Shown here piece after piece: positions 13,587-19,406 of a DNA stretch of 41,051 bases (positions are counted from its first letter, which is position 1; the number at the start of each line of letters is the position of its first letter). The notes below the pieces were generated by a model that was given only the letters and a program-made list of their open reading frames with translations, did not search any database and had not been told where the DNA came from. Origin of the DNA: Actinobacteria bacterium HGW-Actinobacteria-6 (GTDB lineage Bacteria; Actinomycetota; Coriobacteriia; Anaerosomatales; Anaerosomataceae). Position numbers and translations under genes: made by a program. The stretch covers positions 1 to 41,051 of the forward strand of contig PHEU01000017.1 in the NCBI GenBank assembly GCA_002841295.1, written 5' to 3'.

Positions 13587-14651
13587 GTGGCGCTTTCAAT
13601 AGGAATCGTCGGTCTGCCGAACGTCGGCAAGTCCACGTTGTTCAATGCACTCACCCGTAAGGCCGTCGACGCCTCGAACTACCCGTTCGCGACGATCGAG
13701 CCTAACGTCGGCGTCGTGCCTGTTCCCGACCCGCGCGTCGACCGCCTCGTCGAACTCGTGAAGCCGCAGCGCACCGTGCCTGCAGTCGTCGAGTTCGTGG
13801 ACATCGCCGGTCTCGTGAAGGGCGCGAACGAAGGTGAGGGCCTCGGCAACCAGTTCCTGGCGAATATCCGTGAGACCGATGCGATCGTCGAGGTCGTACG
13901 GTTCTTCTCGGATGAGAACGTCATTCACGTTGACGGCAAGGTCGACCCGCTCTCCGATGTTGAGACCATCCGCACCGAGTTGGTGCTGGCCGACCTCGGC
14001 ACGATGGAGCGCTCGCTGACGCGCCTCGAGCGCGAGGTCAAGCGCGACAAGGCGCTGGAGCCTAAGCTCGCCATCGCCCGCCGGGTTGAGGCCTGGATGG
14101 CCGAGGGCCATCGCGCGAGTACTATGCCGATGACCGCCGAGGAGCGCGAGCTTCTGCGCGACCTCCATCTGCTCACCATGAAACCCATGCTCTATGTGGC
14201 GAACATCGACGAGAGTGCCATCGGCACCGATTTGCCCGAGATCGATGGCGTGCGGCCGATTCCGATCTGCGCGAAGATCGAGTCCGAGATGGCAGACCTC
14301 GATGCCGAGGAGCTCGTCGAGTACCTTGAGATGGAGGGGCTCGAAGAGCCCGGCCTCAACACGCTTATTCGTGAGGCGTACCAGCTGCTCGGGCTACAGA
14401 GCTACTTCACTGCCGGCGTGCAGGAGGTTCGCGCGTGGACCGTTCGGGTCGGCGCCAAGGCTCCTGAGGCCGCCGGTGTGATCCACTCGGATTTCGAGCG
14501 CGGCTTCATCAAGGCCGAGACGATCTCGTTCGCCGACTACGATGCGCTTGAGACCGAGGCTGCCGCAAAGGCTGCAGGCAAGCTGCGGATCGAGGGCAAG
14601 GAGTACGTCGTGAAAGACGGCGACGTCATGCACTTCCGCTTCAACGTCTAA
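13587..14651 (+). CDS. ychF: Redox-regulated ATPase/GTPase YchF (Obg family)
   Basis: YchF (354 residues) is a universally conserved P-loop ATPase of the Obg family that binds ribosomes and is linked to stress responses. It has the Obg-type P-loop GLPNVGKSTLFNAL near residue 9, the switch region DIAGLVKGANEGEGLGNQFL with its family-specific loop, the central coiled coil, and the C-terminal TGS domain (FTAGVQEVRAWTVRVGAKAPEAAG... GDVMHFRFNV, given here only as its ends). The start is GTG at 13587 with GGAAGGAGC 6 bases upstream; the longer open frame from 13524 lacks a site. Its stop overlaps the stop of the convergent amidase gene by four bases. Confidence 0.96.
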   Translation: MALSIGIVGLPNVGKSTLFNALTRKAVDASNYPFATIEPNVGVVPVPDPRVDRLVELVKPQRTVPAVVEFVDIAGLVKGANEGEGLGNQFLANIRETDAIVEVVRFFSDENVIHVDGKVDPLSDVETIRTELVLADLGTMERSLTRLEREVKRDKALEPKLAIARRVEAWMAEGHRASTMPMTAEERELLRDLHLLTMKPMLYVANIDESAIGTDLPEIDGVRPIPICAKIESEMADLDAEELVEYLEMEGLEEPGLNTLIREAYQLLGLQSYFTAGVQEVRAWTVRVGAKAPEAAGVIHSDFERGFIKAETISFADYDALETEAAAKAAGKLRIEGKEYVVKDGDVMHFRFNV

Positions 14652-16345
14652 GGCGCAGGAAACCTGCGGGCCTTCGCGAGTTCCCATTCCAGAAGATTCG
14701 ACAGGGTCCCGGTTCCGCCGATCATGGTGAATCCCGAGATCCTGTTGGAGTTCAGCATGACCCACTCGCGCGTCCTGCCTGCGAGAACCGTGCGCCCACA
14801 AAGCACCACGGGCTGCCCTTCTCGGCCGGCCAGCGCGCCCGCGGTGAGTGCGTCGGGGAATGTCTGCGCAGTGGCAACGTATGGGGACATCGTGCCTGCG
14901 CCCCAATACTCCCTGAGCGTCGCGACGTTCGTCTGGTAGCGGTCGCTGCCCTTGAGCCACGTCACCGATAGCGACCGTGCCTTGAGCTGGTCCACGACGT
15001 TCTGCGAGACGGTCGGCGGGCCGCCGACTACCGAGACGCGTGTGACTTCTTCGGAGTGCAGCGCAAGGTATGCCGCCGTCGGTCTTGTCAGGCCGCTCGA
15101 GCGTGTGAGAAGGATTGGCATACCCCGCATCGCCGAGAAGGAAGATGCCGAGGTAGCGTCCGGAAATGCTGTGCCGGCGACGATGGTCACGCCAGATCCC
15201 GGCGTGAGCCCCATGCGCTCCGCCACGGCCACCGCTGTCTCGTAACGGTCGATTCCGGCAAGCCGCTCGACTGCCTCGGCAGGAAGGTCGGCGGCGGCGC
15301 AGGCCGCGTCGACGACCGAGGTCGCGACAGAAGCCTCGCTGCCGAGAACGACGATGCGCTCGGGGCCTAGCTTCGCGATCGCGGACGCGGTCGATGACTG
15401 CAGTTCCGATTTCGGCGTCAGGAGTACCGGCGCGTCGAGGTGTGTGGAAAGCGGCGAAGCGGCGAGCGCATCCGCCCAATCCTCTCCCGAGGCGAGAATG
15501 ACCGAACCTGAGCCGCTCGGCCAGCCTGCCAGCGCCGCATTGGCCGAGGTCGCATAGCGATCAACACCTTCGATTCTCGGCTCGATGGGGGAGAGGGGCT
15601 TCGTTGCGTAGTAGTTATCGATGCCGTTGGCGATGCCCACAGCCACCTTGTGCCGGAATGTCGAGTTCAGCAGCTTCGCGCGATCCGATGAGTTTGAGAG
15701 GAACGCGACCTCTACGAGTGCCGAGGGCATGTTGGCCCACTTGATAACGTAGTAGCCGACATCGTTGACGCCTCGGCTGAAGGTGCCGGCGCTCGAGGTG
15801 ATACCGGTCTGAAGATACGTCGCCAGCGTGCGCGAGAGCTTCGTGTCGGTTGGCGTGTCCCAGCTGTTGTAGTACGTCTCCGTGCCGGTCGCATTGCCGC
15901 CAGCATTGTTGTGTATCGAGATGAATATATCGGCGCCCGAGACGTTCGCCTTGTTGCTCCTGGCCTGCAAGTCGTCGTAGGGAATCGGGTAGGCGCCAGT
16001 GGTGCCGTCGGAATACAGGCGGTAGCTGTCGGTGACCTCGCTGTAGTGCCACGTTGGGATGTCGGCGTTGGTGATGGTGTAGTCGCCGGTGCGGCTCATG
16101 TGCACGGTGTGGCCGCGCGACTGGAGCACTTTGCGCGTTTCCAGGGCGATGAGCAGGTTGACCCGCTGCTCTTCGACGCCGTTGTAGACGGCGCCGGGGT
16201 AGCGTCCGCCATGGCCCGGATCGAGGAAGATCGTGCCGGCGAACGCGGTCGTGGGAACGAGGATAGCTGCAAGCGCGACTGCGAAGGTGACAATGAACAA
16301 GGTAGGCTTGATGCGGGTGGCTACGACGGTGTGCTTCGGCTGCAT
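14648..16345 (-). CDS. Secreted N-acetylmuramoyl-L-alanine amidase with CWB2 repeats
   Basis: The 565-residue protein has a signal peptide (residues 1-36: basic start, hydrophobic core, cut after AFA), then an Amidase_3 domain that cleaves the stem peptide from muramic acid in peptidoglycan. Zinc ligands His45 (LDPGHGG), Glu59 and His145 (SIHNNAGG) and the catalytic Glu212 (VEVAFLSN) are all present. From about residue 257 to the end come three cell-wall-binding type 2 (CWB2) repeats, recognisable by the recurring patterns RIEGVDRYATS, WADALAASPL, PVLLTP and IVVLGSEASV. CWB2 modules anchor proteins to secondary wall polymers non-covalently. The ATG at 16345 has AAGGAG 8 bases upstream. It likely acts in wall turnover or daughter-cell separation. 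Confidence 0.93.
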   Translation of the reverse strand: MQPKHTVVATRIKPTLFIVTFAVALAAILVPTTAFAGTIFLDPGHGGRYPGAVYNGVEEQRVNLLIALETRKVLQSRGHTVHMSRTGDYTITNADIPTWHYSEVTDSYRLYSDGTTGAYPIPYDDLQARSNKANVSGADIFISIHNNAGGNATGTETYYNSWDTPTDTKLSRTLATYLQTGITSSAGTFSRGVNDVGYYVIKWANMPSALVEVAFLSNSSDRAKLLNSTFRHKVAVGIANGIDNYYATKPLSPIEPRIEGVDRYATSANAALAGWPSGSGSVILASGEDWADALAASPLSTHLDAPVLLTPKSELQSSTASAIAKLGPERIVVLGSEASVATSVVDAACAAADLPAEAVERLAGIDRYETAVAVAERMGLTPGSGVTIVAGTAFPDATSASSFSAMRGMPILLTRSSGLTRPTAAYLALHSEEVTRVSVVGGPPTVSQNVVDQLKARSLSVTWLKGSDRYQTNVATLREYWGAGTMSPYVATAQTFPDALTAGALAGREGQPVVLCGRTVLAGRTREWVMLNSNRISGFTMIGGTGTLSNLLEWELAKARRFPAP

Positions 16346-16443: not shown

Positions 16444-16472
16444 TTGACACTGTATACACTGAGGGCTAGCAT
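16444..16472 (+). promoter_or_regulatory. Promoter upstream of the guaB3-guaA leader
   Basis: A consensus TTGACA (16444-16449), 17-base spacer and TAGCAT (16467-16472) give a predicted start near 16479. The spacer contains the 8-base palindrome TGTATACA, a possible operator. The start is about 160 bases before the guaB3-like gene, and a terminator lies between. Confidence 0.7.
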
Positions 16473-16478
16473 ATACGC

Positions 16479-16565
16479 ACCTTACCAGCGTCGCGGAGCA
16501 GCACTTCGTCGCAGCACCGTTAGACCAGGACGCGCCGCCCGGAAGCGGGCGACCCCTGGTCTTTT
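16479..16565 (+). ncRNA. Candidate 5' leader RNA or small RNA upstream of guaB3
   Basis: The roughly 85-nucleotide product expected between the promoter at 16444-16472 and the terminator at 16522-16565 would be a small RNA or an attenuated leader. It matches no riboswitch family that I recognise. A further hairpin (CTGCTT/AAGCAG, 16578-16594) lies between the terminator and the ribosome site of the next gene. The ends are inferred, not seen. Confidence 0.35.
16522..16565 (+). terminator. Intrinsic terminator inside the guaB3 leader (attenuator or small-RNA end)
   Basis: A two-part stem (AGACCAGG at 16522-16529 with CCTGGTCT at 16555-16562, and an inner CGCCCG/CGGGCG with a GAAG tetraloop, 16536-16551) is followed directly by TTTT. 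It is the most typical factor-independent terminator in the window, yet lies 45-85 bases downstream of a promoter and upstream of the gene that promoter should serve. Confidence 0.75.
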
Positions 16566-16637
16566 GTATATCAGTTGCTGCTTCGCTCAAGCAGGGTTTC
16601 ACATCCGCATCGGGGCAATCAGGAGGCGCATCACAGT

Positions 16638-17813
16638 ATGGAGATCGAAATCGGGCGCGGAAAGACAGCACGGCAGGCGTACGGCTTCGACGACATTGCG
16701 ATCGTCCCCTCCAGAAGGACCCGTGACCCGCGGGATGTGGATATCCACTGGGAATTCGCGTTCAAGGGCAAGAAGTACGAGTTCCCGCTTCCGGTTCTCG
16801 CCTCGGCAATGGACGGCGTTGTGGATCCCGGCTTTGCCATCACGATGGGCAAGCTCGGCGGTCTGGCCGTTCTGAACCTCGAAGGCATCCAGACCCGCTA
16901 TGCGGACCCGGCGCCATACCTCGACCAGATCGCCAGCTTCTCCAAAGAAGAGGCGACTGCCAAGATGCAGGAGATCTACGCTGCCGAGCAGGTCAAGCCT
17001 GAGCTCATCACGCAGCGTATCAAGGAGATCAAGGCCGGTGGCGTGCTCGCCGCAGCGTCGCTCACTCCGCAGAACGTTGAGCGCTACATCGACGCTGCCA
17101 TGGAAGGCGGCCTCGACATCCTCGTCATCCAGGGTACCGTCGTCTCGGCCGAGCATGTCTCGACCTACGATAAGCCGCTTGATCTGAATGCGTTCGTTCG
17201 CGACCTCCCGATTCCGACCATCATCGGCGGTTGCTGCAGCTACCAGGGTGCGCTGCACCTCATGCGTGCCGGCGCTGTCGGCGTGCTCGTGGGCGTTGGC
17301 CCCGGCCACGCGTGCACCTCCCGTCGTGTTCTCGGCATCGGCGTTCCGCAGGCCACGGCCATCGCGGACGCTGCGGCAGCTCGTCTTCGCCACATCGACG
17401 AGACCGGCATCTACTGCCACGTTATCGCTGACGGTGGCATGCGCACCGGTGGTGACCTTGCCAAGGCGATCGCCTGCGGCGCCGATGCGGTCATGATCGG
17501 CTCGCCGCTTGCCGCGGCTTCCGAGGCACCCGGTCGCGGCTTCCACTGGGGTATGGCGACCTTCCACCCCGATCTGCCCCGCGGTACCCGCGTTCAGGCG
17601 GGCATTCGTGGTTCGCTTGAGGAGATCCTGCTCGGGCCGGCGCACCAGAACGACGGCACGCTCAACCTGCTCGGTGGCGTGCGTACCTCGATGGCCACAT
17701 GTGGTTACGAGAACCTCAAGACGTTCCAGAAGGCCGAGGTCATGGTCGCTCCCGCGCTGCAGACCGAGGGCAAGACCCTCCAGCAGTCGCAGGGCGTCGG
17801 GATGGGCCGGTAG
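16638..17813 (+). CDS. GuaB3-family IMP dehydrogenase-related protein
   Basis: This 391-residue TIM-barrel protein belongs to the GuaB3 branch of the IMP dehydrogenase/GMP reductase superfamily. It lacks the CBS pair of true IMP dehydrogenase. The catalytic Cys loop is present as [18 protein letters not shown] (Cys226) in place of the usual GPGSxCTTR, and [16 protein letters not shown] provides the phosphate site. Cyanobacterial members have been reported to act as GMP reductases, so this one may convert GMP to IMP rather than the reverse; I cannot decide from sequence. The ATG at 16638 has AGGAGG 11 bases upstream. Its stop shares one base with the guaA start, a strong hint of a shared role in guanine nucleotide balance. 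Confidence 0.88.
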
Positions 17814-19363
17814 TGACAGACTTCCACGATCAGCAGCCGACCGTATTCGTTCTCGACTTCGGCGCGCAGTACGCGCAGCTGATCGCGCGCCGCGTGCGCG
17901 AGGCGCGGGTGTACTCGGAGATCGTGTCGTACTCGATCACTGCCGAGGAGGTCGCGCGCCGCAAACCGGCTGCGATCATCTTGTCCGGCGGCCCGGCGAG
18001 CGTCTATGCCGAGGGTGCGCCGCATATGGATCCTGCCGTGCTCGAGCTGGGCATTCCGATCCTGGGCTTCTGCTACGGCATCCAGGAGATGGCGCTTCAT
18101 TTGGGAGGCGAGATTCCCAAGACCGACATCGGCGAGTATGGTTTCGCCGAGCTTGAAGTGACCGACACCGGAAGCGTCTTGCTTGCAGGTGTGCGGGCGA
18201 CGTCGCAGTGCTGGATGAGCCACCGGGACAGTGTAGGCACCGCTCCCGCCGGCTTCTCGGTGACCGCGCGGACCCCCACCACCGCGATCGCCGCGATGGA
18301 GGATCCGACCCGCAAGCTCTTCGCTACGCAGTTCCATCCCGAAGTCGCGCACACTGAATTCGGGCAGCACATCATCAAGACGTTCCTGCATGATGTCGCG
18401 AAGATCCCGCCGGTGTGGACGATGGTGAACATCATCGATGAGACCGTCGCGCGTGTGCGTGAGCAGGTCGGAACCGACCGCGTGATATGCGGCCTTTCGG
18501 GCGGCGTGGACTCCTCGGTGGTTGCGGCGCTTCTGCATCGCGCTATCGGTGACCAGCTCACCTGCGTGTTCGTGGATCACGGCATGATGCGACTTGATGA
18601 AGCCGAGCAGGTCGTGACCACGTTCCGCGATCAGTTCCACATCGATCTCATCCACGTTGATGCCGAGGAGCGATATCTAACGCTCCTGAAGGGCGTCAGT
18701 GATCCGGAGCGCAAGCGCACCATCATCGGCGAAGAGTTCTGGCAAGTCTTCTTCGAAGAGGCCACGAACCTCGAAGGCGTCAAGTGGCTCGCGCAGGGCA
18801 CGCTGTACCCCGACGTTATCGAGAGCGGCAACAAGACCGCCGCCAAGATCAAGAGCCACCACAACCTCATCCCGTTTCCGGCCGGCGTGCACTTCGACCT
18901 GATCGAGCCGCTCAAGGCGCTCTTCAAGGACGAGGTCCGTGCCGTCGGTTCCGAACTCGGTCTTCCCGATGAGATCGTGCACCGGCAACCGTTCCCGGGT
19001 CCGGGTCTTGCGGTCCGCATCATCGGCGACATCGATCACGAGAAGCTTGAGATCCTGCGCAACGCAGACGCGATCGTGCGCGAGGAGATCAGCCGCTGGG
19101 ACACCGATCGCGAGGTTTGGCAGTACTTCGCGGTGCTGCCGGACATCCGCTCGGTGGGCGTCATGGGGGACGAGCGCACGTACGCGCGACCGATCATCAT
19201 CCGCGCCGTTTCCTCGGCAGACGCGATGACGGCCGACTGGGCGCGCCTGCCGCACGAGCTTCTGGCCAAGATGAGCAACCGCATCATCAACGAGGTTGAC
19301 GGAGTAAATCGCGTCGCCTACGACATAACAAGCAAGCCGCCGGGTACTATCGAATGGGAATAG
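17813..19363 (+). CDS. guaA: GMP synthetase (glutamine-hydrolysing)
   Basis: GuaA (516 residues) aminates XMP to GMP using glutamine and ATP. The class I amidotransferase domain carries the catalytic triad Cys87 (GFCYGIQ), His175 and Glu177 ([11 protein letters not shown]). The ATP-pyrophosphatase domain follows with its PP-loop SGGVDSS at 229-235, and the C-terminal dimerisation domain ends with the family signature PPGTIEWE. The GTG at 17813 shares a base with the stop of the GuaB3 gene; the open frame extends upstream inside that gene but has no reason to start there. Translational coupling is likely. Confidence 0.97.
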
Positions 19364-19375
19364 CCGTGTGATTCG

Positions 19376-19406
19376 AGACGCCGGAGCTGCACGCAGCCCG
19401 GCGTCT
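19376..19406 (+). terminator. Hairpin between guaA and the chorismate mutase gene
   Basis: A long stem (AGACGCCGG at 19376-19384 with CCGGCGTCT at 19398-19406, extended inward by GCTG/CAGC around a CACG loop, one bulged A) starts 12 bases after guaA. No U-run follows, so it could be a partial terminator or a processing and stability element within a longer operon. Confidence 0.5.

Follow-up and report, generated by a model that had tools for sequence, protein, structure and literature searches.

The DNA considered here (the window) is a stretch of 41,051 nucleotides from Actinobacteria bacterium HGW-Actinobacteria-6 (contig PHEU01000017.1), an organism with a genome of 2.35 Mb that belongs to the Anaerosomatales-like Coriobacteriia, called the order below. 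Two genes of guanine-nucleotide synthesis follow each other on its forward strand. The guaB3 gene (16638–17813) encodes an IMP dehydrogenase-related protein (TIGR01304, 523 bits for a cut-off of 342), and guaA (17843–19363) encodes the glutamine-hydrolysing GMP synthase (NF000848, 766 bits, matched residues 49–554). The start of guaA at 17843 was set from the profile match, its open frame beginning at 17699. Downstream of guaA come another hairpin and then the DAHP synthase region. This hairpin (GACGCCGG...CCCGGCGTC, 19377–19405) is terminator-like and located between guaA and the following aromatic-pathway genes; a similar CGCCGG hairpin is found after guaA in relatives, with tails such as TTTGTCGTCA and TTCGTGAAAA. 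Among 296 Coriobacteriia genomes, guaB3 was found in the window's order only.

The gene upstream of guaB3 (14648–16345) is on the opposite strand. Between this gene and a GC-rich, two-part hairpin of 41 nt, named P1 (AGACCAGG...CCUGGUCU, 16522–16562), lies the promoter TTGACA-N17-TAGCAT (16444–16472, plus strand), with TTGACA at 16444–16449, a 17-nt spacer and TAGCAT at 16467–16472. It is kept within the genus, and P1 begins about 50 nt after its -10 element. The leader RNA of the guaB3-guaA operon would extend on the plus strand from 16479, the A of an ACC triplet taken as the start site, to 16637; it is 86–100% identical in the genus. The basal stem of P1, RGACCAGG/CCUGGUCY, is the predicted terminator stem. 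Just 5' of this stem stands a conserved linker, CGCAGCA (16510–16516), whose CAGC recurs in other leaders, some families being without the linker. The U-rich tail of the predicted terminator, UUUGUAUAUC (16563–16572), follows P1, and such a T-enriched stretch of about 10 nt, resembling the tails of tmRNA terminators, is found in the order. A second hairpin (16578–16594; CTGCTT at 16578–16583, AAGCAG at 16589–16594) and the ribosome site AGGAGG of guaB3 (16621–16626) complete the leader. Promoter, two-part hairpin, second hairpin and ribosome site are all at the positions claimed by the sequence-only reading from which this work started. The second hairpin is indeed present, but its description has to be corrected: in the genus it competes with a stronger 10-bp helix enclosing P1. 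This helix, P2, is formed by a 5' strand GCGGAGCAGC (16493–16502) and a 3' strand GCTGCTTCGC (16577–16586) that overlaps the second hairpin. The two structures are alternatives, and formation of P2 uses up the second hairpin. Since its 3' strand is downstream of the predicted termination point, P2 could form only after read-through. The P2 duplex has z-scores of -3.8 to -4.9 in the genus and of -2.9 in genome G010, where the bases are different but complementary. P2 as an order-wide feature was rejected, as it is clear only in the window's genus and G010.

On its own, the promoter match is at chance level, with 1 found versus 1.2 expected in shuffles of 6 kb. P1 has a predicted fold of -25.2 kcal/mol (z -3.7 versus shuffles), compared to -17 to -36 kcal/mol for P1 in other leaders, and is thus a stable GC-rich hairpin of the kind that characterizes intrinsic terminators; the fold of the whole leader is unremarkable versus shuffles (z -0.5). 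A simple terminator scan does not list P1 because its loop and tail break the rule of the scan. It is comparison that lends significance: this promoter, its start site and the hairpin are found again in other members of the genus and across the order.

For this comparison, the regions upstream of guaB3 were taken from the family and the order. A script found 51 leaders with the stem RGACCAGG/CCUGGUCY, whose inner part varies (13–43 nt between the arms). From 37 of these leaders a covariance model was made, which matches 54 of the 69 genomes of the order, that is, 54 of the 64 that carry guaB3. Throughout the 69 genomes, a strong match is always at guaB3, or adjoins a contig end where contigs break. 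Having been trained on guaB3 leaders, the model gives them high scores by construction; what the search does tell is that the genomes hold hardly any other scoring site. No strong copy of P1 was found away from guaB3 in the 69 genomes, and the remaining matches are weak (the best being G008:C62 with E 0.001, and one in the distant 7.8-Mb genome G600 with E 4e-4). The leader had no match in phage records. That the hairpin would not be conserved in relatives had been named beforehand as what would speak against the finding; it is conserved, which favours it. A -10 element of the type TAGAAT/TAGCAT/TACCCT is present at the equivalent place across the order, the ACC start site is retained even in leaders without hairpin, and in every leader the predicted terminator follows the start site at a distance of 33–69 nt. 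CAGC is located 5–8 nt before the stem in 35 of the 51 leaders (2.8 expected). Among four species of the genus, identity is 0.86–1.00 in every segment of the leader between the inferred start site and the beginning of guaB3, versus 0.58–0.76 at guaB3 fourfold sites and 0.59–0.82 upstream of the promoter. This step up in identity at the ACC, itself kept in hairpin-less leaders, supports the proposed start site. Ten readable leaders are devoid of the hairpin, and most of these have the promoter close to the ribosome site. In the GuaB3 tree, the order forms one clade, almost every line of which has the hairpin; its distribution requires no fewer than four changes. They are best read as losses, at least four in number, of a hairpin that is old in the order, which indicates that the hairpin is dispensable. 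In one genome (G051, leader L160), a long GCA-rich leader of imperfect GCATTGCAACC-like repeats upstream of guaB3 replaces the hairpin. Another small hairpin, GCCCnnnnGGGC, often followed by GUGAGA, is found shortly 5' of the ribosome site in L147, L159, L164–L167, L178 and others in the order; it persists in G052, which lost the terminator.

The sequence-only reading had suggested looking for covariation across relatives, and the basal stem RGACCAGG/CCUGGUCY does covary. Its nine basal pairs are standard in 94.9% of cells versus 90.1% in shuffles. Four of them change on both sides, with 25 cells changed on both sides versus 3.5 in shuffles. Sliding the partner strand abolishes the covariation signal, and RNAalifold recovers the identical basal helix unprompted. 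The exceptions among eight basal pairs are 16 G-U and 2 A-C. A DNA palindrome should give both equally, and the large excess of G-U thus points to the plus-strand RNA as the target of selection. In the middle of the stem, the pairs GACCAG/CUGGUC are nearly invariant, and the sequence of the 5' arm of P1 is conserved beyond the needs of pairing.

In most leaders of the order, the tail is an imperfect U-tract (e.g. TTGTCGTATC, CTGTCGTATCC) and not a classical U-run, which taken alone would argue against termination. The tmRNA genes of the same genomes, with stem ends set by eye, served as a yardstick. Their hairpins are followed by the tails TTGTCGTGC, TTTGCGTGC, TTCGCGTGC and similar. The number of T per 8 nt is 3.5 in the leaders, below that of classical U-tracts, 4.0 in the tmRNA terminators and 1.3 in the background. 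Leader tails differ from the background with p 2e-25 and from the tmRNA set with p 0.06, both values being uncorrected for relatedness and dependent on stem ends set by eye. From this likeness of the tails, P1 would have a build close to that of other terminators in its clade. The tmRNA terminator stems vary between genera, in contrast to the stem of the guaB3 leader. A terminator-like hairpin conserved as RNA is situated between promoter and guaB3, as in an attenuator. As a side observation, the intrinsic terminators downstream of tmRNA in the order (L209–L238) have short degenerate tails, such as TTGTCGTGC, that are missed by standard U-tract scans.

Several other actinobacterial families also have a TTGACA promoter, a leader and a terminator before guaB3, the latter with classical U-runs: AACCCAGA...UCUGGGUU-AUUUUUU in L275, GCCCAG...CUGGG-UUUUU in L290, GACCAG...CUGGG-UUUUUUUU in L274 and CCAGG-ACUG-CCUGG-UUUUUUUU in L269. 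A CCAG/CUGG core is present in most of these families; the exceptions are one f83 and one f89 leader with a terminator devoid of the core, and one f70 leader with part of it only. Of 34 cases, the pair that adjoins the core on its outer side is C-G in 17, A-U in 15 and U-A in 1, a compensatory change between the order and the other families. This layout is absent from the acidimicrobial genes and from family f29. Model R1 gives no match to guaB3 leaders from other classes (L094–L141), so that the link between classes rests on position, terminator and the CCAG/CUGG core, compared by eye and by script. On this basis, the guaB3 leaders are likely homologous across actinobacterial classes. In families f30, f56 and f70 (L273, L274, L275, L278, L279, L281, L283, L285), a short ORF with a ribosome site lies just before or overlaps the guaB3 terminator, and the similar terminator may thus be coupled to translation there.

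What could switch P1 was looked for in alternative folds, ORFs and Rfam. Pairing of the terminator arms or of the ribosome site with other parts of the leader gave no signal over 47 leaders (mean z -0.18 to +0.17), in a test that a pseudoknot or a clade-specific pairing could escape, and the earlier remark that there is no obvious antiterminator held. The leader had also been said to fit no riboswitch; accordingly, a search of Rfam found no family at gathering score, the purine riboswitch included. Loose matches to hammerhead II (L164) and to the Thr leader (L275) were rejected as off the motif or at chance level. In 19 of the 51 leaders of the order, the window's among them, the segment that separates the start site from the stem contains neither ATG nor GTG nor TTG, and over the 51 leaders no ORF that has a ribosome site is recurrent. 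The literature search retrieved nothing on any guaB3 leader. With no leader ORF, no Rfam aptamer and no standout pairing, the signal is placed on a protein or ligand, and we infer that such a regulator would act at the linker and the 5' arm of P1.

Computation thus establishes a conserved leader, an RNA hairpin, a terminator-like build and a link to guaB3 alone. The segment probably functions as a cis-acting transcription attenuator of the guaB3-guaA operon. An attenuated leader was one of two possibilities offered by the sequence-only reading, and it gains support from the conserved covarying hairpin, the tmRNA-like terminator build, the tie to guaB3 and the absence from Rfam. Transcription would start at about 16479 and, about 85 nt further on, the polymerase would meet an intrinsic terminator made of P1 and its tail (16522–16572). 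P1 would terminate some transcripts at this tail in the cell, and the remainder would read through into guaB3-guaA. Termination would be regulated, the fraction of read-through being set by a factor that acts on the leader 5' of P1 or on the 5' arm of P1. The searches in the order found no leader peptide and no antiterminator conserved in the RNA, so that the likeliest regulators would be a protein that binds RNA or a small molecule linked to guanine nucleotides. Weighing against an attenuator are the imperfect U-tracts of most leaders, the searches for a sensor, an ORF or an alternative fold that came out negative, the at least four losses, and the unremarkable fold of the entire leader.

The attenuator is a known kind of regulator; this particular RNA was found neither in Rfam nor in the papers searched. 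A promoter-proximal terminator is the mode of many purine riboswitches. The closest system in role is the guanine (purine) riboswitch of Staphylococcus aureus, which precedes xpt-pbuX-guaB-guaA and is likewise a cis-acting leader for guanine-nucleotide genes, including guaB and guaA (PMC2858708). However, the sequence of the guaB3 leader is unrelated to that of the S. aureus purine riboswitch, and it matches neither this nor another family of Rfam. In protein-dependent antitermination of the LicT/SacY type, a short leader ends in an intrinsic terminator whose 5' arm and preceding bases are conserved in sequence. The guaB3 leader is similarly short, with conservation of the 5' arm of the terminator and of the bases before it, but a second hairpin overlapping the 5' arm, as in the LicT/SacY type, was not found as a conserved feature in guaB3 leaders. 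Leader-peptide attenuators of the trp/his type have an early intrinsic terminator in a biosynthetic operon. The early predicted terminator is shared with these, as are, in certain other families of actinobacteria, the short ORFs that precede the guaB3 terminator, whereas the order has neither a leader ORF nor a conserved antiterminator. The leaders L269, L274, L275, L279, L286, L290 and L320 are alike in guaB3, in the order of promoter, leader and terminator and mostly in the CCAG/CUGG core; they differ by their classical U-tracts, by C-G replacing A-U beside the core and, for some, by short ORFs.

Other explanations have to be weighed against a regulated attenuator, or as a form of it. A metabolite riboswitch, in which the leader would bind a purine compound (guanine, GMP, XMP, GTP, ppGpp or PRPP) and control P1, would be a special case of it. 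The presence before guanine-pathway genes only, the sequence conservation of linker and stem, and the high degree to which the entire leader, unpaired parts included, is conserved within the genus are in line with this idea. We nevertheless regard it as a doubtful possibility, given that Rfam gave no match at a useful score, that no alternative pairing is conserved and that the part 5' of P1 is short (33–69 nt), with a structure that is not conserved over the order. Alternatively, P1 could be an unregulated partial terminator that reduces guaB3-guaA expression by a fixed factor without any signal. This would agree with the repeated loss of the hairpin and with the pairing and ORF searches, which found no sensor. 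A weak promoter would however serve equally, conservation of stem, linker and whole leader exceeds the needs of a plain terminator, and tmRNA terminator stems in the same genomes differ between genera, making this alternative unlikely. It is quite unlikely, too, that P1 does not terminate and that the structured 5' leader acts post-transcriptionally, on mRNA stability, processing or translation. The tails match those of tmRNA terminators, classical U-tracts occur at the homologous position in other families and the ribosome site shows no excess of pairing. In favour of such a leader, the order has imperfect U-tracts, conservation within the genus extends to the 3' part of the leader, and P2 and the hairpin near the ribosome site are predicted to form in the full-length RNA.

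The other possibility offered by the sequence-only reading, an independent small RNA, was not borne out. Promoter and terminator of its own would yield a discrete RNA of about 90 nt, acting in trans and located before guaB3 by chance. This is very unlikely, because none of the 69 genomes has a strong copy elsewhere than at guaB3, neither a gene nor another promoter is evident between the hairpin and guaB3, and the lineages without hairpin retain the promoter right at guaB3; several lineages lost the hairpin, down to a short leader, and none kept it elsewhere. A ribosome-mediated attenuator with a leader peptide is highly improbable. The short ORFs with a ribosome site at the guaB3 terminator that would suggest it, in f30, f56 and f70, are all outside the order, in which 19 of 51 leaders show no start codon upstream of the stem and ORFs with a ribosome site do not recur. 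Finally, the basal stem is an inverted repeat and promoter matches of such quality are expected by chance, so that a chance structure or a DNA operator palindrome could be considered, as could the terminator of the neighbouring gene. These are hardly credible in view of the conservation of the hairpin over the order, the variable spacing of its arms (13 to 43 nt) and exceptions that are G-U and not A-C; as to the neighbour, the upstream gene is on the other strand, with the promoter between it and the hairpin.

The proposed attenuator of guaB3-guaA could also be part of something wider. It is tempting, with a confidence that stays well short of even, to see in it a deep-rooted class of attenuator RNA for guanine-nucleotide synthesis, previously undescribed, homologous from the order to several other actinobacterial classes through the CCAG/CUGG core of the terminator; its switch would be a riboswitch aptamer of a new type or a dedicated antiterminator protein that binds RNA. 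Growth rate, rRNA synthesis and the stringent response are under the control of the GTP pool, which is supplied by GMP synthesis. The regulation of this synthesis is hardly known in actinobacteria outside the well-studied genera. The proposed guaB3-guaA attenuator offers a small, defined RNA for a direct search of the signal. Its restriction to guaB3 suggests that this little-studied relative of IMP dehydrogenase belongs to the regulated entry into the guanine branch.
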